NCBI GenBank assembly: GCA_029552825.1
Contig: JAKPDL010000187.1
Span: forward strand, 1-64,000
DNA length: 64,000 nt
Direction: 5' to 3'
DNA from: Bacteroidota bacterium
GTDB lineage: Bacteria > Bacteroidota > Bacteroidia > Bacteroidales > VadinHA17
Below the pieces are notes generated by a model. That model searched no databases. It was not told where the DNA came from and saw only the letters and a list, made by a program, of their open reading frames with translations. This document shows, piece by piece, positions 37,744 to 58,249 of this stretch. Each line of letters starts with the position of its first letter. Within the stretch, counting starts at the first letter, position 1. Made by a program: the position numbers and the translations under genes.

Positions 37744-38535
37744 TTATTTATCCGACAGGAGCCTTGGGCCCCTTATAACCCCTCTTTCTGAATTTCTGAA
37801 AAATTCAATGATATAGTCTCTGTCGGGTGAGGGCTGGAAATTCTTTTCCACATATTCCAGTGCCTGCGAGGTATTCATTCCGTTAAGGTATATTGCCCTG
37901 TAAATGTTATGAATTTCATTTATGCGTTCTTTGGTGAATCCCCGCCGGGTAAGCCCTACAACATTAACGCCCATATATGCAAGAGGTTCCCTGTCGGCTT
38001 TGATAAAAGGAGGAACATCTATACGCACTTTTCCTCCGCCACCTATAATCACATGCCCGCCTATTCTAGTAAACTGATGCACAAGTGTACCGCCGCTTAT
38101 TATAGCCCAGTCGTCAACTTTCACTTCTCCTGCCAGCCCTACAGCGTTCCCCAGAATGCAATTATTACCTATCTGGCAGTCGTGACCCACGTGCGCACAA
38201 GCCATGATAAGACAATTATCTCCTATAACAGTCTTACCTACTGCAGCTGTTCCCCTGTTAATGGTAGCGCCTTCTCTGATAGTTGTATTGTCTCCTATTT
38301 CTGCAGTGGTTTCCTCCCCCTTGAACTTAAGGTCCTGGGGAATTCCTGATACTACAGCACCAGGGAAAATTCTGCAGTTGCGTCCGATACGTGCACCATC
38401 AAGCACAACACCATGAGGCCCAATCCATGATCCATCACCTATAACTACATTTCCAGCAATATATGCAAATGGTTCTACGACTACGTTTTCGCCAAGTTTA
38501 GCATCAGGATGAACAAAAGCCAATTTTGAGATCAT
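37744..38535 (-). CDS. lpxA: UDP-N-acetylglucosamine acyltransferase
   Basis: First step of lipid A synthesis: transfers a 3-hydroxyacyl chain from ACP to UDP-GlcNAc. 263 residues. The N-terminal two thirds is a left-handed parallel beta-helix of hexapeptide repeats (IGDGSW, IGRNCR, IGDNTT, IGDNCL, IGNNCI). The catalytic His lies in CAHVGHDCQIGN. The C-terminal helical domain contains GLTRRGFTKERINEI. It is last in the HD-lpxD-lpxC/fabZ-lpxA run, 7 nt after lpxC-fabZ. Confidence 0.97.
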   Translation of the reverse strand: MISKLAFVHPDAKLGENVVVEPFAYIAGNVVIGDGSWIGPHGVVLDGARIGRNCRIFPGAVVSGIPQDLKFKGEETTAEIGDNTTIREGATINRGTAAVGKTVIGDNCLIMACAHVGHDCQIGNNCILGNAVGLAGEVKVDDWAIISGGTLVHQFTRIGGHVIIGGGGKVRIDVPPFIKADREPLAYMGVNVVGLTRRGFTKERINEIHNIYRAIYLNGMNTSQALEYVEKNFQPSPDRDYIIEFFRNSERGVIRGPRLLSDK

Positions 38536-38542
38536 AATCTTT

Positions 38543-39946
38543 TCATTTGTTTCTTATAATCTGAGCTATCATTTCTCCCTCAATTACAAGGGTATTTCCA
38601 ACGTATGCCTGTCCATGCATCGAAACTATTCCCCTTCTGACAGGCTCGGTTAATTCCATTTTGATCACCAGAGTATCTCCTGGGACTACTTTATGCTTGA
38701 ATTTAAGTTTATCAATTTTCAGAAAATATGTAGAATATTTTTTGGGATCGTCAACTTCGTTCAGTACCAGAATACCGCCAGTTTGAGCCATAGCTTCTAT
38801 CATAAGAACTCCCGGCATAACAGGTTCATCAGGAAAATGCCCCTGGAAAAATGCTTCATTTCCTGTGACATTCTTTATGCCGACAACCTTGTTCTCATCA
38901 ACATAAATTATCTTGTCAACAAGTAAAAAAGGATATCGGTGGGGCAGTATATTCTTTATGTCCTCGTAATTATATACAGGTGGCACTGTTGGGTCATAAA
39001 CAGGTATATCTTTTTTTGACTGAGCCTTTTTGATTTCCTGTCTTATAATTCTTGCCAGCCTGGTATTGGCGTAATGGCCCGGTTTTGTTGCCACCACCTT
39101 GCCTTTTATCGGCTGTCCCACGAGTGCAAGGTCACCTATCAAGTCAAGCAGCTTGTGCCGGGCCGGCTCATTTGGATATCTTAACTCGGTATTATTCAGA
39201 ATACCTGCTTTATGGCTGTTTATGCCAGGCCTGTTAAAAAGCTTTGCAATTCTGTCAATCTCTTCCTGCGGCACCTCCTTTTCCATTATCACAATTGCAT
39301 TATCCAGGTCGCCGCCTTTTATCAAACCCGCCTTAAATAAAGGTTCAAGTTCGTGGAAGAATACAAAAGTACGGCATTTGCTTATCTCTTTTTCAAAATC
39401 ATTTATTGTATCGAGAATTGCATACTGGTTACCAAGTATTCTTGAATTATAATCAATAAGAACATTTATGCTGAAATGATCGTCGGGATAAACAATAAGG
39501 TCAACACCATGCTCCTCGTCTGAAAATGTAATCTTCTGTTTAACAGTAAAATAATTACGCTCTTCCTTCAGTTCAACTATTCCTGCTTCCTTTATTGCTT
39601 CAACAAATTTTTCGGATGAACCTCCCATAATAGGAGCTTCAGGTCCATCAAGTTCTATAAGGGCGTTGTCAACCTGCATACCATAGAATGCTGCGAGAAC
39701 ATGTTCAATGGTTGAAACAGATACTCCGCTTTGAGTTAATGTGGTACCTCTCGAGGCTTCTGTAACATTTTCGGCAAGAGCATCTATAACAGGCTTGCCC
39801 GGAAGGTCAACCCTGCAGAACTTGTATCCATGGTTAGCTGGCGCTGGTTTAAATGTAATATTTACATTTATTCCTGTATGTAATCCTTTCCCGTTAAGGC
39901 TTATTTCACGCGCAATAGTTCTTTGCTTTTCAGCCATTTCAGTCAA
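38543..39946 (-). CDS. lpxC-fabZ: bifunctional LpxC deacetylase / FabZ dehydratase
   Basis: A fused protein of 467 residues. The N-terminal ~300 residues are LpxC, the zinc deacetylase that commits UDP-acyl-GlcNAc to lipid A: KGLHTGINVNITFKPA, the zinc segment STIEHVLAAFYGM, and NSHKAGILNNTE with ARHKLLDLIGDL. The C-terminal ~145 residues are the FabZ hydratase of fatty acid synthesis: NILPHRYPFLLVDKI and FQGHFPDEPVMPGVLMIEAMAQTGG, with its catalytic His and Glu. This fusion is characteristic of Bacteroidota. A second start codon three codons in (39937) is equally plausible. Confidence 0.97.
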   Translation of the reverse strand: MTEMAEKQRTIAREISLNGKGLHTGINVNITFKPAPANHGYKFCRVDLPGKPVIDALAENVTEASRGTTLTQSGVSVSTIEHVLAAFYGMQVDNALIELDGPEAPIMGGSSEKFVEAIKEAGIVELKEERNYFTVKQKITFSDEEHGVDLIVYPDDHFSINVLIDYNSRILGNQYAILDTINDFEKEISKCRTFVFFHELEPLFKAGLIKGGDLDNAIVIMEKEVPQEEIDRIAKLFNRPGINSHKAGILNNTELRYPNEPARHKLLDLIGDLALVGQPIKGKVVATKPGHYANTRLARIIRQEIKKAQSKKDIPVYDPTVPPVYNYEDIKNILPHRYPFLLVDKIIYVDENKVVGIKNVTGNEAFFQGHFPDEPVMPGVLMIEAMAQTGGILVLNEVDDPKKYSTYFLKIDKLKFKHKVVPGDTLVIKMELTEPVRRGIVSMHGQAYVGNTLVIEGEMIAQIIRNK

Positions 39947-40037
39947 AATATGTAATTAAAATCTATTACAAAGGAAATAAAAATTTCGTGAACTATTTAT
40001 GAAAATTGACATTAATGCCTATCCTCAACAATTACGG

Positions 40038-41075
40038 TTATTCCTTTTTCAGTTCTTCAATCTCTTTTCTCACTGAATCGAGCTGGGCTTTTATCTCTGT
40101 AAGTTTCTTAAATAAAAGGTACGACTTAAGATAATGACGATGTTCGAATGCGGGAGAACCCATTACGGTAAGGTTCTTCTCCTCAATGTCGCTGATGATA
40201 CCCGATTGTGCGCAAGCTCTCATTCCATCTGCAATTTTGAGATGTCCTGCTATCCCAACTTGCCCCCCTATCATACAATTGTTCCCAATTTTTGTAGACC
40301 CTGCTATTCCTGTCTGACCTGCCATTACTGTATTTTCCCCGATTTCAACATTATGTCCTATCTGCACAAGATTGTCGATCTTAACACCTTTTCTGATGAC
40401 AGTCGAGCCCATTGTTGCCCTGTCGATTGCAACGTTAGCTCCTATCTCCACATCATCTTCAATAACCACGTTGCCTATCTGAGGTATCTTCTTGTACTGA
40501 TTGTCTGCCCCGGGAGCGAACCCAAAGCCATCACTTCCGATAACAGTTCCGGCGTGTATGATACATGAATTACCTATCACACACTCATGGTATATTTTTA
40601 CACCGGGATAAATTATGCATTCCTTACCTACTTTTGTTTTATCACCGATATACACATGCGGAAAAATCTGACTGCCATCCCCAACTTCACACCCATTACC
40701 AATATAGGCAAAGGCACCCACGTAAACATTTTCTCCCAGTTTTGCATCCGGTTCAACTACAGCAGTTGGATGTATGCCTTTTCTGGCAGGTTTAGATTGT
40801 GTTACCATTGTCAGCAGTGATGCAAAAGCCTCATAAGCGTTGTCAACTTTTATGAGTGTTGCCTGAACAGGGGCTGCAGGTACAAAATCCCTGTTGACAA
40901 GCACTACTGATGACTTTGTTGTGTAAATATAAGGTTCATATTTGGGGTTTGCCAGAAACGACAGGGCCCCTTCTTGACCCTCCTCAATTCTGGCAACAGT
41001 GCTAACCTTTACATCAGGATTCCCGACTATTTCACCTTTGAGAAACTGAGCTATTACAGTTGCTGTAAATTCCAT
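40038..41075 (-). CDS. lpxD: UDP-3-O-acylglucosamine N-acyltransferase
   Basis: Adds the second acyl chain in lipid A synthesis. 345 residues. The N-terminal substrate-binding domain (FLKGEIVGNPDVKVSTVARIEEGQEGALSFLANPKYEPY) is followed by a left-handed beta-helix of hexapeptide repeats (LGENVY, VGDGSQ, IGDKTK, IGNSCI, IGNNCM). The catalytic His lies in LVQIGHNVEIGEN. A C-terminal helix (FKKLTEIKAQLDSVRKEIEEL) forms the trimer-stabilising coil. It sits 17 nt after the HD-domain gene. Confidence 0.97.
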   Translation of the reverse strand: MEFTATVIAQFLKGEIVGNPDVKVSTVARIEEGQEGALSFLANPKYEPYIYTTKSSVVLVNRDFVPAAPVQATLIKVDNAYEAFASLLTMVTQSKPARKGIHPTAVVEPDAKLGENVYVGAFAYIGNGCEVGDGSQIFPHVYIGDKTKVGKECIIYPGVKIYHECVIGNSCIIHAGTVIGSDGFGFAPGADNQYKKIPQIGNVVIEDDVEIGANVAIDRATMGSTVIRKGVKIDNLVQIGHNVEIGENTVMAGQTGIAGSTKIGNNCMIGGQVGIAGHLKIADGMRACAQSGIISDIEEKNLTVMGSPAFEHRHYLKSYLLFKKLTEIKAQLDSVRKEIEELKKE

Positions 41076-43446: not shown

Positions 43447-46400
43447 ATGACGTTCCTCCATAATATTCTCACTGTTGCACATTACGAGGCAAAGACCCTG
43501 AGAAGAACCTGGTTCTTCAGACTCTTTGCCATAGGGGCGCTATTCATTTTTACAATGTTGAACATAGGCCTCTTTTCTCCGGTGGGAACTGAATCATGGG
43601 AAATGGTTTCAATTCCTTCAGCCCTACCCCTGATCAATCTGTACCTGCTGAACATCGGTCAGGCAGTCGTTGTAATATTTCTTGCATCCGATTTTCTGAA
43701 AAGGGATAAAAAACTTGATACTGTCGAGGTTTTATATACCCGATCTGTCTCCAACTTCGAATATGTAACCGGAAAAACTTTAGGCATATTGCGCCTTTTC
43801 CTTTCACTTAATGTTGTTATTTTAATAATAGGACTGATTATAAATATTATTTCCAAAACCATGAAAGTAGACATACTTTCATATTTTGAATACCTCCTAT
43901 TTATCTCAATACCTACCCTTATTTACAGCCTGGGCCTTGCATATATATTAATGCTTATAATCGGGAATCAGGCAATTACATTTTTCCTCCTGCTCGGATA
44001 TGCAGCACTTAACATGTTCTATCTGTGGTACAGGGCAGGATCTCTATACGATTACATGGTTTTTGGAATGCCACTTTACAAGTCGGGAATAATAGGATTC
44101 GACAATATCACCGCGATAATCAACCAGCGTCTGGGCTACTTCTTTGCAGGAGTATCAATGATAATGGCTTCGGTGATTCTTTTCAAAAGACTACCACAGT
44201 CAAGACTCCATACTAATTTAGCCCGGACCTTACTCGTACTTTGTATTATAGGTTCAGGCATAACATTTTATAACACATTAAACAATCATCTGGAAAGAGA
44301 AAAGCTTAAAAGAAGCGTAATTGAAATCAACCGCAAATACGAAAAAAGCAAATTCCCCTCAACAACCTCAGCAGATATCGAACTGGCACATAAGGGTAAA
44401 ACAATTGAGGCTGTATCCATGCTCAGAATTGTAAATGATAATGATACCCCTCTTGAATCATATATTTTTTCACTTAATCCAGGCCTATCAGTTAAAAAAG
44501 TAATTTCAGGAAACAGCGATATTCAGTTTAAAACTGACGGACATATAATTGAAATTTCTCCTGCAAAGAGGCTTGAGCCGGGAGGATATGACAGTGTAAC
44601 GATTTTTTATTCGGGCAAAATTACTGAAGCGTTTTGTTATCCAAATTTCAGTGATGATCCGAAAAACAACAGGTACAGAATTGCCATGGTAAATGTTAAT
44701 AAAAGGCAAGCTTTTCTGAAAAATAACTATTTGCTCTTTACTCCGGAATCACACTGGTATCCTGTATCAGGTTTGAACTATTACCCTTCAAACCCGGCAA
44801 GGATTAAAGTTGATTTCACAAAATTCATTCTGAAGGCAAAATCAGACAAAAACCTTAAGGTAGTTTCGCAGGGAATACCCGGGGAAGAAGGTGAATGGAC
44901 AAAATACTCATGTCCGTTCCCTCTTACAGGACTTACCGTTGCAATGGGAAACTATGTTGCCGACAGTATAACTGTCGATTCCGTAAAATTCATCTCATGG
45001 CATTATCCGGGCACTGACTATTACAAAAAAGATTTTGAAGAACTTAAAGACACCCTTCCAAATCTTATATCAGGTTTTATGAAAGATCTCGAATCAGGAT
45101 TCGGGGTGGCTTATCCTTTTTCCTGTTTAAGCATGGTGGAGGCTCCTGTTCAGTTTTACTCGTATCCGAAAAGCAATACACAGGTCCGGGCCGAAATTCA
45201 ACCCTCAATGGTTATTATCCCTGAAAAGCTTTCGACCCTGCAGCAGGCAGGTTTTGCAAAAAGGTTTGCAAGACAGAAAAAGCAGATGGCACGCAACAAT
45301 CAGATAATAACCGATAAAGAGCTGAAAGTCAGAATCTTTAACAACTTCATCAGAAACACTTTTATAAGCGGGCGTAATTTCAGAATGGTAAATGGTGTGC
45401 TTGTAAATGAACCAACAAGGTATTTGTTAGGACCAAGCTTTTACTTTTTCAGAAACAATTTCTACTCAGATGAATATCCTGTTATTAATGCTGTTTTTGA
45501 ATCGCATCTCCAGAAGCTAAATGAGCCTGCTCCTGCAGGAGGACCAGGAATGATGGCCGGTAATCTTTCAGATAACGATAGGGCTAATCTTATTCTCAAA
45601 AACACAAGTTTCAAAGAGCTTCTGGCCCGAAATCCCAGCAGTGATACCATGCGTGCCGTGCTTACTTTAAAAGGAGACTGTCTGTTTAATTATCTGAGAT
45701 ATAAGGCAGGCATAAACGAATTTAACGAATGGTTTAAAAATTATATATGGGACAACAGCTACAAAAGGGTAAATATTCTGAAATTCAATAATGATTTAAA
45801 GGAGAGATTCGGATTTGAATTTTATCCATATCTCGAAGAATGGTTTAACGGCAGGGAGCAGCCTGGATTTATTTTTACAGAACCCGATGTAACAACTATT
45901 GTGGTTGACCAGCGGACAAGGTTTCAGGTTGTTTTTACAGCATCCAATACTGAATCTGCAGGTGGGCTTTTCAATGTTTCGTTCCGCACAGGTGGCGGTT
46001 TCGGAGGCAGAGGCGGAGGACAGGCAATTATGTCTGTAACTTTTCAGGGAGGACGAGGAGGTGCCGCAGGAGGCGGTAGAATGATGCAAATAGCAATGCA
46101 GGGAAGAGGCCTCACAAGCTCCGACATATCAAAAATTGTCTATCTCTCACCTCACGAAACGAAAAAAATTGGAGTGGTTCTTGAAAGCCAGCCCAGAGCC
46201 ATGCAGATTAATGCTCTGTTTTCGAAAAATATCCCTGGGGAACTGGTGTTTACTATTCAGGAAGTTAAAAAAGAATCAGCAAAACAAAAGCCTTTTGAAG
46301 GAGAGGAAATTGTTCAGGAAATACCATCTTTTACACAACCGGGAGAAGTTGTAGTAGACAATGAAGACCCTGGATTTTACAGGAGTGCAACATCTAAGAT

Positions 46401-46971
46401 GAACCCTCTCAGAAAAATATTGAGTGGTAATAAGGAAGTCGCTGAGACATATCAATCAATGAATCTTTTCGTTGCACCGGAATACTGGCAGCCTGTAGTT
46501 CAGAACACCTTTTACGGCCGATTCGTGCGTTCTGCTGTTTACACAAGAGCAGGCACAGGCGACAGATATGTGACATGGAAGGGCATAATAAAAGAACCCG
46601 GCTATTATGATGTATATGCATATATTGGCAAGGCTGGAGCTCAGATTATTATGAGAGGAGCTGGAAGGCCGGGGCAGGCAGGTGCTCAACCAGGTCGTCC
46701 ACCAGCTGGAGGGCCTCCGGGCACACCACCACCCCCGGGTGACCAGAGTGGCGAACCCGCCCGGCAAAACCCGTACAAAGACTTCCATTTCAAAGTCTAC
46801 CACGACGACGGTATGGATGAAATAACCATCGATTATGAAACCGCTGATCCGGGATGGAACAAACTTGGCACTTTCTACCTCTCACCCGATACAGTTAAAG
46901 TGGAGATGACAAACCAATCAGAAGGCAGAATTGTGATTGCAGATGCAGTAAAATGGGTGCTGAAGGAATAG
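43447..46971 (+). CDS. ABC-2-like permease fused to M1-peptidase-like and golvesin-like domains
   Basis: A 1174-residue membrane protein. Residues 1-270 hold about six membrane helices in an ABC-2 permease pattern. Residues ~280-850 resemble the extracytoplasmic M1-aminopeptidase module of known permease/M1 fusions (FTPESHWYPVSGLNYY, FPLTGLTVAMGNY, LSMVEAPVQFYSYP). However, no HExxH zinc motif exists anywhere, so it is probably a non-catalytic binding domain. A Gly-rich patch follows (~855-890). The last ~180 residues (NTFYGRFVRSAVYTRAGTGD..., WNKLGTFYLSPDTVKVEMTN, IVIADAVKWVL) resemble a golvesin/xanthan-lyase C-terminal domain, interrupted by a Pro/Gly-rich loop. It follows its ATPase by 11 nt. 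Confidence 0.85.
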   Translation: MTFLHNILTVAHYEAKTLRRTWFFRLFAIGALFIFTMLNIGLFSPVGTESWEMVSIPSALPLINLYLLNIGQAVVVIFLASDFLKRDKKLDTVEVLYTRSVSNFEYVTGKTLGILRLFLSLNVVILIIGLIINIISKTMKVDILSYFEYLLFISIPTLIYSLGLAYILMLIIGNQAITFFLLLGYAALNMFYLWYRAGSLYDYMVFGMPLYKSGIIGFDNITAIINQRLGYFFAGVSMIMASVILFKRLPQSRLHTNLARTLLVLCIIGSGITFYNTLNNHLEREKLKRSVIEINRKYEKSKFPSTTSADIELAHKGKTIEAVSMLRIVNDNDTPLESYIFSLNPGLSVKKVISGNSDIQFKTDGHIIEISPAKRLEPGGYDSVTIFYSGKITEAFCYPNFSDDPKNNRYRIAMVNVNKRQAFLKNNYLLFTPESHWYPVSGLNYYPSNPARIKVDFTKFILKAKSDKNLKVVSQGIPGEEGEWTKYSCPFPLTGLTVAMGNYVADSITVDSVKFISWHYPGTDYYKKDFEELKDTLPNLISGFMKDLESGFGVAYPFSCLSMVEAPVQFYSYPKSNTQVRAEIQPSMVIIPEKLSTLQQAGFAKRFARQKKQMARNNQIITDKELKVRIFNNFIRNTFISGRNFRMVNGVLVNEPTRYLLGPSFYFFRNNFYSDEYPVINAVFESHLQKLNEPAPAGGPGMMAGNLSDNDRANLILKNTSFKELLARNPSSDTMRAVLTLKGDCLFNYLRYKAGINEFNEWFKNYIWDNSYKRVNILKFNNDLKERFGFEFYPYLEEWFNGREQPGFIFTEPDVTTIVVDQRTRFQVVFTASNTESAGGLFNVSFRTGGGFGGRGGGQAIMSVTFQGGRGGAAGGGRMMQIAMQGRGLTSSDISKIVYLSPHETKKIGVVLESQPRAMQINALFSKNIPGELVFTIQEVKKESAKQKPFEGEEIVQEIPSFTQPGEVVVDNEDPGFYRSATSKMNPLRKILSGNKEVAETYQSMNLFVAPEYWQPVVQNTFYGRFVRSAVYTRAGTGDRYVTWKGIIKEPGYYDVYAYIGKAGAQIIMRGAGRPGQAGAQPGRPPAGGPPGTPPPPGDQSGEPARQNPYKDFHFKVYHDDGMDEITIDYETADPGWNKLGTFYLSPDTVKVEMTNQSEGRIVIADAVKWVLKE

Positions 46972-47054: not shown

Positions 47055-48539
47055 ATGAAAACAAAACCGCTAAATACCAAACCACTGCTTTTATTTATCT
47101 GTATGATATCTGCCCTGGAACTTCCCTGTCATGCCCAGAAAGGACTTACCTTACAGGATGCAATGAAAATTGCAGAAGCTAACAGCCCCTCAATAAAACA
47201 GACAAAACTCAGCCTTATAAGAAGCCAGGAAAACCTTAATGCACAGAATGCGGCACTAAAATCGAACTTCTCACTCACAATCAATCCTATAGGATACACA
47301 CAGAGCAGAGAATTCAACGATCTGATATCAAAATGGAATACCAGAAGATCCACTGAAAGCTACAGTGTATTTACTGTATCACAGCCCATTTTGTTTACTG
47401 ATGCAAGAGTATCACTGGTAAACAGGTTTGGCTATAAAGACTCATACAGCGAATTTACCAATGTCACTACTAAAGGATTCAGCAACAACCTCTCAATTAA
47501 TCTCGATCAGCCTCTTTTTACATATAACCGGACAAAGCTTCAACTTAAACAATTACAGCTTGCCCTTGAGAACGCCCAGCTCAACTATGCCCTGCAGCTC
47601 CTTTCACTTGAGAGGCAGGTTGCCCAGGCATATTATTACGTGTATCAGCAGCAGCAAAGTCTGGAAATTGCAAAACAAGCATATGAAAACATGAAACAGA
47701 GCTATGAGATTTCTAAAAACAAGGTGGAGGCAGGCCTCTCAGCCCAGGACGAACTATATCAGGCAGAACTTAACCTTGCAACAACAAAATCGGATTTTGA
47801 AAACAAACAGGTATCTCTCGAAAATGCAAAAGACGATTTCAAAATCCTTATCGGTATGGACCTGTATGACGATTTCGTTGTATTGCCGGATATATCAGTT
47901 GATACAATACCTGTCGACATTGCATTCGCCATTGATCACGGACTTAAAAACAGAATGGAACTTCGTCAGAGAGAAATATCTATTGAAAACTCACAGTTCG
48001 AACTTATTCAGACAAAAGCACTTAATGAATTCAAAGGAAATCTTAACCTTTCAGTAGGACTATTTGGTGATAACGAAAAATTTAGTGACGTCTATGCAAA
48101 TCCTACTGATAATGAATCTGTTGCATTATCTCTTACAATTCCTCTCTGGGACTGGGGAGAAAAGAAATCAAGGATTAAAGCTACCGAAGCTTCAATTGAA
48201 AGTGCAAAAATATCTCTCGAAAATGAACAAAATAATATTATTCTTGGCATTAGGAAAATATACAGGAATCTGATTAACCTCCAGAATCAGATTGAGATAG
48301 CCCGGAAATCAGTAACAAATGCACAGCTTACCTATGAACTTAACCTCGAAAGATACAAAAACGGCGATCTGACCGGTATGGATCTCAATATTTACCAGAA
48401 CCAGTTGTCAGAACGGCAGTTAGCTTATACTAATGCGCTTATTTCCTATAAACTTGAACTACTCAATCTTAAAATACAGACATTATACGATTTTGAAAAG
48501 AAAGAACCGGTCTCACCGGTTTTAAAACTTAACCAGTAA
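47055..48539 (+). CDS. TolC-family outer-membrane channel
   Basis: A 494-residue exported protein (signal peptide about 1-28, cut near CHAQ). It has the two-fold helical pattern of TolC-type outer-membrane efflux proteins: GLTLQDAMKIAEANSPSIKQ at the start, long heptad helices (LALENAQLNYALQLLSLERQ; QAELNLATTKSDFENKQVSL), and the second repeat beginning LTIPLWDWGEKKSRIKA. It would form the outer-membrane exit duct for the pumps encoded next. It lies 83 nt after the permease fusion, the largest gap in the locus, so a secondary promoter here is possible. Confidence 0.93.
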   Translation: MKTKPLNTKPLLLFICMISALELPCHAQKGLTLQDAMKIAEANSPSIKQTKLSLIRSQENLNAQNAALKSNFSLTINPIGYTQSREFNDLISKWNTRRSTESYSVFTVSQPILFTDARVSLVNRFGYKDSYSEFTNVTTKGFSNNLSINLDQPLFTYNRTKLQLKQLQLALENAQLNYALQLLSLERQVAQAYYYVYQQQQSLEIAKQAYENMKQSYEISKNKVEAGLSAQDELYQAELNLATTKSDFENKQVSLENAKDDFKILIGMDLYDDFVVLPDISVDTIPVDIAFAIDHGLKNRMELRQREISIENSQFELIQTKALNEFKGNLNLSVGLFGDNEKFSDVYANPTDNESVALSLTIPLWDWGEKKSRIKATEASIESAKISLENEQNNIILGIRKIYRNLINLQNQIEIARKSVTNAQLTYELNLERYKNGDLTGMDLNIYQNQLSERQLAYTNALISYKLELLNLKIQTLYDFEKKEPVSPVLKLNQ

Positions 48540-48557
48540 AATTTTAATAATATTAAT

Positions 48558-49616
48558 ATGAAAAGGTCAATATTTTTAATTGTAATTGCTTTTGCAATCC
48601 TCTCTCTGGCAGGCTGTAGAAATCAGGAGCCAAATCTTTCAGCTGACATTGAAATTCCTGTTACGGTTGAAGATATAAGGCTTAAGTCAATAGAAGAATA
48701 TGTCAGTACTACTGGAATAGTCTATCCGCACGGAGAGGTGACTCTGAAGGCAAAAATTTCTGCCTCTTATTACCTCGAAAAAAACCCGCAAACTGGCCGG
48801 CCATGGCAGCTTGGCGACAGAGTTAAAGCAGGTTCGCTTATTGCCAGGCTGGAGGATAAAGAATTTATCCTGTCGATAAAACTCGAAACGAATGAGCTGA
48901 ATCTCGAACTTGCTGAAAGCGAACTCAGGAAGCAGGAATCCCTTTACGAAAAAGGAGGTGTGACTTTAAAAGACCTTAAAACGGCGGGTATAAACTATGA
49001 AAATGCAAAGACAGCAGTCGAAAATGCGAGGCTGCAACTTGAAAAAACCAGGGTTGTCTCCCCTATTGATGGCATAATAGTGGAACTCCCTTATTACACA
49101 CCCGGGACTCAGGTTGAAGCTGGATCAACAATTGCTAAAATCATGGATTACCAGACTATGTATATGAATGTCCAGCTACCTGAAAAATACATTGGTGTAA
49201 TTAAACCTGAACAACCTGTAAAACTTACCAATTACACTATTCCTGAAGATACACTTTATGGAAAAGTAACACAATTATCCCCCGCAATAAATCCTGATAC
49301 CAGAACTTTTCAGGGAGTTATCACAGTCAATAATCCTGATTTACTTCTCCGGCCCGGAATGTTTGTAAAGGCCGATATAATTATTAACAGGAAAGACTCT
49401 GTGATTGTCATCCCCAAAAGCATAATTCTATCGCGGCAACGAGGGAAAACAGTATTTGTCGTTGACCGGGGACTGGCCCTTGAAAGAATTATTGAGACAG
49501 GGCTGGAAAACCTTTCAGAAGCAGAAGTTGTGAGAGGCCTGTCGAAGAACGAAAGAATAGTAACCAGTGGCTTCGAAACACTGAGTAACAGATCCAGAGT
49601 GAAAATAGTTAAATAG
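48558..49616 (+). CDS. periplasmic adaptor (membrane-fusion) lipoprotein
   Basis: A 352-residue RND-type membrane-fusion protein. The lipobox is LAGC (Cys at about residue 20). The lipoyl half-motifs surround a helical hairpin: GRPWQLGDRVKAGSLIARLED, then NLELAESELRKQESLYEKGGVTLKDLK, then RVVSPIDGIIVEL. Beta-barrel and membrane-proximal domains follow (LSPAINPDTRTFQGVITVNNPDLLLRPGMFVKADI). It would bridge the TolC-like channel and the two RND pumps. It starts 18 nt after the channel gene and ends 5 nt before the first pump gene. Confidence 0.95.
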   Translation: MKRSIFLIVIAFAILSLAGCRNQEPNLSADIEIPVTVEDIRLKSIEEYVSTTGIVYPHGEVTLKAKISASYYLEKNPQTGRPWQLGDRVKAGSLIARLEDKEFILSIKLETNELNLELAESELRKQESLYEKGGVTLKDLKTAGINYENAKTAVENARLQLEKTRVVSPIDGIIVELPYYTPGTQVEAGSTIAKIMDYQTMYMNVQLPEKYIGVIKPEQPVKLTNYTIPEDTLYGKVTQLSPAINPDTRTFQGVITVNNPDLLLRPGMFVKADIIINRKDSVIVIPKSIILSRQRGKTVFVVDRGLALERIIETGLENLSEAEVVRGLSKNERIVTSGFETLSNRSRVKIVK

Positions 49617-55700: not shown

Positions 55701-57536
55701 ACAGCCCTTACCACTATTCTGGCACTTCTGCCTCTTGCAATGGGACAGGCAGAATATGTATCAGTAATCGGCGCTTCATTCGCAATTACAGTAATAGGTG
55801 GATTGTCACTTTCTACAATGCTGACACTTGTTTTTATTCCCACATTTTACTCGGGCCTCGAAAATGCAATCGACTGGATCAAATCTCTCAGCACAAGAAC
55901 CAAAATTATTCAGCTCTGCGCCCTTGCTGCCCTCCTCTATCTGGTGTTCACATTTGTCAATACCTTCATCTGGCAGCTTATCACAACAATTCTATCTGTT
56001 ATAATTGTTCCTGCTGCCACATGGTTCATTATCAACAGCTTGCGCAAAGCAAAAGAAAGTGTTATTCCTCAGAACGAGCCAATCAACATCCAGATACAGA
56101 GCCTTGTTAAAATATACGATAGGGAGAGCCGATGGTTAAGGGAATGGAAAGCAGGAGCAAGAATCAGACGCAGACTCGGACTCGAAAAAGAGATACGCTC
56201 CCTGAAGGATATGGAAAATATGACATGGCAACTCCCACTATTCGGCTTTTTGATCTATTTCACGTACTTTTACCTTTCAAAGGGATTCTGGGTATTCTTT
56301 TTCAGTATTATCACATGGCTGGCACTATTCGGAATATGGTCCTCATTCCGCCAATTTTTAACCAACCTGGCAAGTAAGAATCAAAAACTTCCTGTAAAAA
56401 ATATTTTCCGGATAATCGAATTTATTGTTATGTGGTTCGTACCACTGTTTAATCTGGTTTTCTTTCAGATTCAGTGGAAAAACATTGCAACAGTGCTTAT
56501 TCTTGGTTTTGTATGGTATGCTTCCATTCTTGTTTATATAACAGGAGAGAAGCTTACGCGCGAAAACATAGACATTTACAGACTGCAGGGTCGGTTCAGG
56601 GAACTCAGAAAAACATTTTATAAAATAGTTTTAATGGTGCCTCTTATCGGGAAAAGGAAAAAGCCCTTCAAGGCTCTCAACTGTGTAAGCATGACCATCG
56701 GAAGTGGAATGTTCGGATTGCTTGGGCCTAACGGGGCAGGCAAGACAACCCTTATGCGCATTATTTGCGGTATCCTTGAACAGAGCTACGGCAAGGTATG
56801 GATTAACGGAATTGACACCCAGAAGAAAAGAGAGGAACTTCAGGGTTTGATAGGCTACCTGCCTCAGGAGTTCGGAACCTATGAGAATATGACCGCCCAC
56901 GAATATCTTCATTATATGGCAATACTCAAAAACATAACCGACCCTGAGGTGAGGGAAGAGCGCGTCACTTATGCCCTTAATGCCGTTCATATGGCCGACA
57001 GAAGATTTGAAAAAATCAGTTCGTACTCGGGAGGCATGAAGCAGAGAATAGGAATAGCTCAGATTTTGCTCCACCTTCCGAGAATCCTTGTGGTTGATGA
57101 ACCAACTGCAGGTCTCGATCCGAGAGAAAGAATAAGGTTCCGAAACCTCCTTGTTGAACTCAGCAGGGAAAGAGTAGTTATCTTTTCCACCCATATAATC
57201 GAAGATATCTCAAGTTCATGCACTCAGGTTGCTGTACTCGACAGAGGTAACCTAAAATATCTGGGAAGACCTATTGATATGGCGGTAAGTGCAGAGGGCC
57301 ATGTCTGGCAAATAACTATGCACGCATCAGAATTCAAAGAGTTCATAAAAGATCATCTGGTCGTTCACCATATGTCGGAAGGCAATATGGTTAAACTGAG
57401 ATGCATATCTGAAGAAAAACCATGGGAAACAGCCATTAAAGTCACGCCTAACCTTGAAGATGCTTACCTGTGGCTACTCAGAAGGAAAAACAACGGAGAA
57501 AACATATTACCGGAGACAAACAGACTAATGCAATGA
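52767..57536 (+). CDS. RND efflux transporter fused to an ABC ATPase
   Basis: A 1589-residue single reading frame. Residues ~1-1030 are a complete RND pump; TM4 is GMALAVGMLVDNSVVVLENI with D398, and the last RND helix is near SLSTMLTLVFIPTFYSG. Two extra helices follow (~1043-1090). At 1107-1117 NIQIQSLVKIY resembles an ATPase first strand. Then come ~180 inserted residues with about four helices. The ATPase core continues from FKALNCVSM: Walker A GPNGAGKT 1320-1327, signature YSGGMKQ from 1420, Walker B ILVVDEP from 1440, switch His1476. All ATPase motifs are intact. Its core and tail resemble the stand-alone ATPase at the start of the locus. Start ATG is 16 nt after the first pump. Confidence 0.95.
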   Translation: MDFIIKRKVLVSMLFLGLTMMGYVSYKQLPVELFPNAELPLLIVQVTTPLEMDPAYIEQQAVIPVEGAIGTIEGVEKIESNVTSRYGTVIIYFNQKANLKYSNLKLQEKIDIVRNSIPEEFIINVIKIDLEQITGQFMDLQVRGEGGIDRIRNIADREIKPEFENLDGIAGVEVFGGRENSIEIRLNEKACKAYGVTMNQVRNLLNSYSRDKTFVGRVVDGANRYFVNITSEYTDVSEIGNIIINKEGPVLLKDIAEIFFGVKEETSYSRINGMDAVTITLVNDNQANTIDLSHKAAALVNSLNQKLKPLGVEIVIQNNTTEVLERNINQIISLAITGGILAIVVLWFFLRNLRLVMIIGVSIPVSVYTAFNFFYGAGISINSLTLVGMALAVGMLVDNSVVVLENIYRLSGQGFIPEQAVKTGTREVRKAIIAATLTTIIVFTPFVFSGNYLIKIIGKNIGVSIISTLSVSLLAALMLIPMATYYLLNVKGGRSEIFKNLSIHNRLVQAYHLILKACMRKPAATIIGTLVVFFAALLTSLTLSISSTREVDTPNFRLSVRMPSGSTLEKTDAVVAEIESRLATLPEKGDVISRIEEEQATVTVTLPDDWKKKTKRSLPEIKNDISERVKNITQAEITMDEISAGGGYSSGGAGGGTNPGAGFLNLLGIGTQRESIIIKGQNFDQMKILADDIKSYLDDLSTISSSSVNVQDNRPEVQLHFDMDYINRNNFTLANLATALSTFGREYSSGARFRQGTETYDIILKYNDEAAQENQNSEKTLEDLKHLEVTNPTGSVMELQELARIVFSAGPGNIHRENQEKRVTVTYNFTEEIRNSKDLLESARAEVEAIVADLNIPSGIAVEVVHEENELKEFYKLIGIAFVLIYMILAAVFQSLTVPVVLLFSIPLAALGSLLALILTGNSLLNANTLTGFLILLGIVVNNGIILIDYTKTLRNRGYRRSRALMMAGVARIRPIMITALTTILALLPLAMGQAEYVSVIGASFAITVIGGLSLSTMLTLVFIPTFYSGLENAIDWIKSLSTRTKIIQLCALAALLYLVFTFVNTFIWQLITTILSVIIVPAATWFIINSLRKAKESVIPQNEPINIQIQSLVKIYDRESRWLREWKAGARIRRRLGLEKEIRSLKDMENMTWQLPLFGFLIYFTYFYLSKGFWVFFFSIITWLALFGIWSSFRQFLTNLASKNQKLPVKNIFRIIEFIVMWFVPLFNLVFFQIQWKNIATVLILGFVWYASILVYITGEKLTRENIDIYRLQGRFRELRKTFYKIVLMVPLIGKRKKPFKALNCVSMTIGSGMFGLLGPNGAGKTTLMRIICGILEQSYGKVWINGIDTQKKREELQGLIGYLPQEFGTYENMTAHEYLHYMAILKNITDPEVREERVTYALNAVHMADRRFEKISSYSGGMKQRIGIAQILLHLPRILVVDEPTAGLDPRERIRFRNLLVELSRERVVIFSTHIIEDISSSCTQVAVLDRGNLKYLGRPIDMAVSAEGHVWQITMHASEFKEFIKDHLVVHHMSEGNMVKLRCISEEKPWETAIKVTPNLEDAYLWLLRRKNNGENILPETNRLMQ

Positions 57537-58249
57537 AAAGAAATATACTTTATAAATATTTTAACGTGATTCAGAAAATGACAGTTTATAATCTGAAAAT
57601 CATTTTCGCAAACAGATTCTTCTGGTTTCTGATTGGCTCAGTTGGATTTTACTCAGGACTATCACTGATATATATCCTCTCAAATAACATTTATAAAGTT
57701 CAGGATCTCTACGGTACTTTTATCTTTACGGGTATACTGCTGGTCTTTTATCCTTCAGTTTTCGGTATTCAGAACGACCAGGACTCCAGAACAATTGAAA
57801 TTCTTTTCGGAATACCCGATTACCGTTACAAAGTATGGCTGATAAGGCTTTTAATGATATTTATAATAACTTTTCTGGTAATGCTTGTTTATACGTCCAT
57901 TTCATCATTATTAATAATAAAATTCAGGATACTTGAAATGACCTCCCAGGTTATGCTTCCGGTAATGTTCATCGGAACACTGGCTTTTATGATGTCGACA
58001 GTAGTACGGAACGGTAACGGCACTGCAGTAATAATGATTGTTATAGGCATCTTCTTTTTGATACTATCCGACAGTCTATCGAGAAGCCAGTGGAATATTT
58101 TTCTGAATCCTTACGATCTTCCCCGTGACATGAACGAAACAGCATGGAATCTTATAACAGTAAAAAACAGAATTATCCTCACAACTGGAATTATCCTGTG
58201 CCTGCTGGCCGGTCTATACAACCTTCAGAATAGAGAAAAATTCATTTAA
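57533..58249 (+). CDS. ABC-2-like permease subunit
   Basis: A 238-residue protein with about six membrane helices, in the ABC-2 permease style: an amphipathic N-terminal helix (FNVIQKMTVYNLKIIFANRFFWFLIGS), then QNDQDSRTIEILFGIPDYRYKVWLIRLLMIF, a short cytoplasmic turn typical of ABC-2 permeases. The ATG overlaps the stop of the RND-ABC fusion as ATGA, so I choose it over an upstream in-frame ATG at 57470 inside the fusion gene. Tight overlap makes it the likely membrane partner of the fused ATPase. It ends the locus, followed by a terminator. Confidence 0.85.
   Translation: MKRNILYKYFNVIQKMTVYNLKIIFANRFFWFLIGSVGFYSGLSLIYILSNNIYKVQDLYGTFIFTGILLVFYPSVFGIQNDQDSRTIEILFGIPDYRYKVWLIRLLMIFIITFLVMLVYTSISSLLIIKFRILEMTSQVMLPVMFIGTLAFMMSTVVRNGNGTAVIMIVIGIFFLILSDSLSRSQWNIFLNPYDLPRDMNETAWNLITVKNRIILTTGIILCLLAGLYNLQNREKFI

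Follow-up and report, generated by a model that had tools for sequence, protein, structure and literature searches.

Gene order and conservation of the locus

The window, i.e., the whole stretch of 64,000 nucleotides analysed here, carries a seven-gene cassette on the + strand in the order ABC ATPase, a protein of 1174 amino acids, outer-membrane efflux protein (OEP), membrane fusion protein (MFP), RND transporter 1, a fusion of a second RND transporter with an ABC ATPase (RND::ABC), and a second permease (Table 1). The second gene, an ORF with an ATG start at 43447-46971 (+), is the subject of this report. Its product combines a seven-helix ABC-2-type permease, an M1-like region without HExxH that is predicted to be periplasmic, and a C-terminal golvesin domain. 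The architecture of the original prediction (permease, inactive M1-like module, golvesin-like domain) thus stands, on the grounds of Pfam, hydropathy and family profiles.

Table 1. Coordinates of the cassette genes and of the parts of the 1174-aa protein in the window
Feature	Coordinates	Strand	Evidence and remarks
ABC ATPase 1, 298 aa	42539..43435	+	PF00005 1e-33; intact GPNGAGKST, LSGGM, LFIVDEP (motif scan)
1174-aa protein: permease part, residues 1-280	43447..44286	+	hydropathy, seven predicted TM helices; ABC2_membrane_2 in 15/18 orthologues
1174-aa protein: M1 N-terminal beta domain, residues 303-500	44353..44946	+	hhalign; hmmsearch match to 6a8z; best-modelled part in both AF2 models
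1174-aa protein: GAMEN-like segment, residues 556-598	45112..45240	+	44.9% mean pairwise identity; aligned to IIEFPRYGSFAQSFPAMIPFSE of active fusion
1174-aa protein: expected HExxH-x18-E zone, residues 599-700	45241..45546	+	without zinc ligands; exact register approximate
1174-aa protein: post-catalytic helical part of M1 domain, residues 730-815	45634..45891	+	hmmsearch to PDB 3cia 2.2e-5, 1z1w 8.9e-4, ERAP1
1174-aa protein: beta-rich domain, residues 816-960, partial match to M1 domain III	45892..46326	+	1z1w match extends to profile position 881
1174-aa protein: golvesin-like domain, residues 968-1172, from conserved VDNED motif	46348..46962	+	PF25275; PDB 6f2p 9.2e-6
Outer-membrane efflux protein (TolC-like)	47055..48539	+	PF02321 5.3e-50
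Membrane fusion protein / periplasmic adaptor	48558..49616	+	PF16576 3.7e-24
RND transporter 1, 1042 aa	49622..52750	+	ORF list; TM4/TM10 motifs
RND 2 :: ~250-aa membrane linker :: ABC ATPase, 1589 aa	52767..57536	+	PF00873 1.7e-164, PF00005 7.7e-28
Second small permease, 238 aa, six TM	57533..58249	+	ORF caller's GTG start 57470

Strong matches to the 1174-aa protein were found in 17 other genomes when 149 genomes of the same order were searched, and public genome contigs added two loci (L034 and L035), with a small overlap possible between these and the order genome set. The alignment used below comprises 18 full-length sequences, the others being 29-34% identical to the window protein. One genome holds a second copy of the gene (L025, G088:C37) with one in-frame TAA stop, which is possibly a pseudogene.

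The seven-gene order is kept at 20 of 20 other loci, within the limits set by the contig or fetched stretch in each case. The genes that flank the cassette (lpxA, lpxC-fabZ, lpxD, an HD-domain gene, a thiL-like gene and others) do not occur near the other copies, the exception being a weak partial match at the edge of L111. Considering that the order is kept and the flanks are not, we regard the cassette as a self-contained unit. The lipid A genes lpxA, lpxC-fabZ (a fusion) and lpxD lie divergently upstream of it at 37744-41075 (-); we considered whether these neighbours tie the cassette to lipid A synthesis and rejected the idea, since they are not conserved at the other copies.

OEP, MFP and RND genes stand together here, as in a tripartite RND pump. 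The ABC-2-type permease has an adjoining gene for its cognate ATPase, as in an ABC-2 exporter; this ATPase 1 gene is found at the same upstream site in every orthologous operon whose stretch extends that far. The gene of the 238-aa permease, which has no Pfam family match, overlaps the fusion gene by ATGA. The 1174-aa-type protein and the RND::ABC fusion go together: 16 genomes of the order share both, the exceptions being two genomes with a contig ending nearby and one 61%-complete genome, and phylum-wide exactly the same 4 of 296 genomes carry the full-length protein and the linker of the fusion. This fixed ABC/RND setting, which was not mentioned in the original prediction, changes the probable purpose of the periplasmic arm.

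In the other genomes the RND::ABC fusion reads as one continuous ORF of 1536-1640 aa whenever it lies entirely within a contig; RND transporter 1 is 29% identical to the fusion of L110. Among solved proteins, RND 2 matches MdtB best (2.9e-65). For the fused nucleotide-binding domain (NBD) the closest solved structures are those of ABCA phospholipid transporters (2.3e-51), with bacterial ATPases such as NosF as weaker matches; both NBDs of the cassette have intact ATPase motifs in the motif scan. The AcrB-type proton relay D407/D408/K940 (AcrB numbering) is reduced to the D407 equivalent according to the motif scan, wherever it matched, and the MdtB alignment. Both window RNDs keep this TM4 Asp, have Asn in place of K940, and have Asn or Ser in place of D408. 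The replacement of the D408 and K940 equivalents raises the question of how the RNDs are energised.

An M1-like region without a zinc site

Hydropathy places seven TM helices within residues 1-275 of the 1174-aa protein, with positive charge on the N-terminus and on the loops that follow helices 2 and 6; from this positive-inside pattern the C-terminal 900 residues are predicted to lie in the periplasm. The Pfam family ABC2_membrane_2 is matched by 15 of the 18 orthologues at E up to 0.1, the window protein itself reaching only 0.35.

The relation to M1 peptidases is not visible in the window protein alone (hmmscan against Pfam, NCBIfam and a PDB sequence search), for which Golvesin_C is the sole Pfam family above the cut-off. 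These single-sequence searches suggested that there is no M1 region at all; that reading was overturned by the family profiles. By hhalign, the family profile matches stand-alone M1 proteins with a probability of 99.0% (E 9.6e-18, columns 305-846) and the true permease-M1 fusions with 98.7% (E 2.5e-16, columns 11-840), the latter match being collinear. When residues 295-835 of 22 orthologues were compared with 17 M1 sequences, the probability rose to 99.5% (E 1e-22), and 7 of the 18 orthologues match Peptidase_M1 (PF01433) individually at E up to 0.1, with the best at 1.3e-6. A profile search of the PDB matched, besides 6f2p, the cold-active aminopeptidase 3cia, tricorn factor F3 and ERAP1. 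The homology at the profile level extends across the N-terminal and catalytic domains, and the M1-like central region proposed from the single sequence is well supported by it. Three M1-like proteins with open frames of about 1130 aa and HELLHNYW motifs (L086, L090, L094) match the post-catalytic helical region of the family.

The AlphaFold (AF2) models built from a three-sequence alignment are too poor for use, both at full length (pLDDT 37.3) and for residues 290-832 (pLDDT 43.6); residues 300-390 are the best modelled in both, with pLDDT about 55-80. All 50 listed Foldseek matches of the low-confidence 290-832 model are M1-family enzymes, ERAP1 being the best among those listed (2e-8), which lends weak support to the M1 fold. 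Superposition of the same low-confidence model on leukotriene A4 hydrolase covers 96 columns at an rmsd of about 1.6-2.6 and is good mainly in the N-terminal domain.

The motifs HExxH, HxxEH and HxxE/DxxH are all absent from the window protein in the motif scan, and residues 500-830 contain only two His, 519 and 687. The absence of HExxH is in itself unsurprising, since the motif occurs in only 23 of 5000 shuffles of the sequence; it is meaningful because the region is homologous to M1. The expectation that a protein lacking HExxH is unlikely to be catalytic, and the question of whether the zinc ligands are lost throughout the orthologous group, were both answered in the same direction at the sequence level: neither HExxH nor the HExxH-x18-E arrangement of active M1 enzymes is present in the M1 zone of any of the 22 orthologues (the window protein and 21 others, three of them from more distant genomes). 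No alignment position has His or Cys in at least 80% of the 22 rows, so that a shifted conserved zinc site is unlikely. The register of the lost HExxH falls at about 611-615 in one profile alignment and that of the third ligand near 680 by eye, with zinc ligands at neither. HExxH does occur at residue 885 of L018 and at 719 of L021; both were taken as chance occurrences in the beta domain past the M1 region. As far as sequence can tell, the peptidase is dead across the orthologous group.

The substrate-side element of the domain has fared differently from the zinc site. The literal GAMEN motif was not found; the equivalent segment is conserved in the family and can be aligned to the active fusions, and its residues E565, P567, P586 and E593 are invariant in 18 of the 18 aligned orthologues. 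The residues of the M1 region that are invariant or nearly so are only a few acidic ones, e.g., E434, E565 and E593. Among the orthologues, the mean pairwise identity is nearly the same in the GAMEN-like segment as in the membrane part (45.8%) and falls to 24.9% in the HExxH zone (residues 599-700), whereas in the five active fusions to which this contrast is confined, one of them a fragment, the two zones are equally conserved (46.6% and 46.1%). The later helical part is also less conserved (23.7% in the orthologues vs 41.7% in the active fusions), which means that the drop in identity extends beyond the zinc zone. It looks as if catalysis was lost while the binding surface at the substrate edge was retained.

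For the C-terminal domain, the proposed likeness to golvesin and xanthan lyase is confirmed. Golvesin_C (PF25275) is matched at residues 1104-1170 of the window protein with 1.7e-12 and 47.9 bits against a cut-off of 31.6, and is found in 18 of the 18 aligned orthologues at E 0.1 or better; the family profile also matches PDB 6f2p, the C-terminal domain of a Paenibacillus xanthan lyase. The start of the domain (residue 968) was set by eye from the 18-sequence alignment. The Pro/Gly-rich loop described earlier is real (about 1071-1103), yet variable and missing in several orthologues, and a functional role for it was rejected for that reason. Homology to xanthan lyase suggests that the domain may bind carbohydrate.

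Comparison with known systems

The active ABC-2 permease-M1 fusions (L024, L036, L037, L098) likewise carry a periplasmic M1 module behind an ABC-2 permease, and have an ABC ATPase gene directly upstream, as here; the ATPase of L036 is 45% identical to ATPase 1. They differ in having two permease halves in one chain and an intact HExxH. The first of these halves is matched only weakly by the 238-aa permease (hhalign E 0.007, probability 5%). In the fetched stretches the active fusions form a two-gene ABC operon, with no RND, MFP or OEP homologous to those of the window beside them, and no golvesin domain was found in P0003, the one active fusion scanned with Pfam. The open-access papers searched yielded no description of such permease-permease-M1 fusions in two-gene ABC operons.

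The tripartite RND systems AcrAB-TolC and MdtABC-TolC have the same OEP, MFP and two RND subunits. In the cassette, however, the second RND carries a fused ABC ATPase, an ABC-2 transporter is added, and the K940 equivalent is Asn and the D408 equivalent Asn, Ser or Thr in the RND orthologues wherever the motif scan matched. MacAB-TolC is an ABC transporter working with an MFP and TolC; the ABC part described here is of the ABC-2 type with GldA/ABCA/NosF-like ATPases rather than of the MacB type, and RND proteins are present. The golvesin domain belongs to the same family as the C-terminal domain of the xanthan lyase (PF25275, 6f2p), above the cut-off, but it is carried by the arm of a permease rather than by a secreted enzyme and has the variable Pro/Gly-rich insert. 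TAF2 of TFIID is inactive as a peptidase. It is a precedent for the reuse of the M1 fold, sharing the Peptidase M4/M1 and aminopeptidase-N-like domain entries (PMC12047770), although it is a eukaryotic nuclear protein from an unrelated context.

A possible hybrid exporter

We believe, with somewhat better than even confidence, that the cassette encodes a hybrid ABC/RND envelope exporter in which the arm formed by the dead peptidase and the golvesin domain binds or docks the substrate in the periplasm. An ABC-2-type exporter would have the 1174-aa protein as one of its two membrane subunits, and the arm of this protein presumably combines an M1 aminopeptidase fold that has lost catalysis with a golvesin (carbohydrate-binding-like) domain behind it. 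A single ABC transporter needs two permeases and two ATPases; the cassette has both pairs, with intact ATPase motifs, and we propose that the 1174-aa protein, the 238-aa permease and the two ATPases make up one such transporter. This exporter would act within a cassette that also supplies the TolC/MFP/RND tripartite pump, to the RND trimer of which it would be tied by the subunit where an ABC ATPase is covalently fused to RND 2. The retained GAMEN-like segment and the position of the arm suggest that it serves as a substrate binder or docking arm: the dead M1 cleft and the golvesin domain may hold a peptide- or glycan-bearing substrate, and the arm may pass it to the RND/MFP/OEP conduit or dock against that conduit. 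ATP hydrolysis and the proton motive force would both drive this one export path.

The same components could be read in other ways. Adjoining pumps can be co-transcribed without joint function, and the RND, MFP and OEP are ordinary members of their families; the locus might then encode an ordinary tripartite RND pump. In that case the ABC part (the 1174-aa protein, the small permease and the two ATPases) would transport or regulate on its own, and the arm would act as a sensor or scaffold instead of carrying substrate. We consider this rather unlikely, because a physical link is favoured by the covalent joining of RND and ABC and by the fact that this fusion occurs together with the 1174-aa protein, although the ABC and RND parts could operate as separate pumps despite the fusion. 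Less probable still, in our opinion, is a role in envelope maintenance, where the ABC part would move a lipid, lipoprotein or glycoconjugate, the arm would contact cell-wall or surface glycans, and small-molecule efflux would be incidental. The similarity of the fused NBD to ABCA phospholipid transporters (and, more weakly, NosF) speaks for it, as does that of the golvesin domain to the xanthan lyase C-terminal domain; NBD similarity is, however, little informative on the substrate, and the flanking lpxA, lpxC-fabZ and lpxD are not kept near other copies. Retained peptidase activity of the arm, through an active site that was rearranged or works without zinc, would agree with the strong conservation of the GAMEN-like segment, but the lack of any conserved His or Cys and of an alternative HxxEH, with so few acidic residues invariant or nearly so, makes this very improbable.

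Returning to the hybrid exporter, it is tempting to propose more, namely a dual-energy machine for envelope export. The covalent RND::ABC subunit would join a complete ABC exporter to an RND trimer, and the pseudo-peptidase/golvesin arm would hand the substrate over from the ABC side to the RND/TolC path. We put this forward tentatively, as a possibility short of an even chance. MdtBC forms an RND trimer of 2:1 composition, and it may be speculated that such a trimer would here contain one fused ATPase.

No description of the hybrid ABC/RND cassette was found in the open-access papers searched, a scope outside which most subscription papers fall. ABC and RND pumps are regarded as distinct classes, each with its own energy source, and a conserved cassette that fuses the two in genomes of many families offers a direct route to ask if one export path uses both ATP and the proton motive force. 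The dead peptidase gives a clear example of an enzyme that became part of a transporter, in which active two-gene relatives can be compared with dead seven-gene cassettes. If the dual-energy machine is true, it would be a kind of transporter covered by neither the ABC nor the RND classification.
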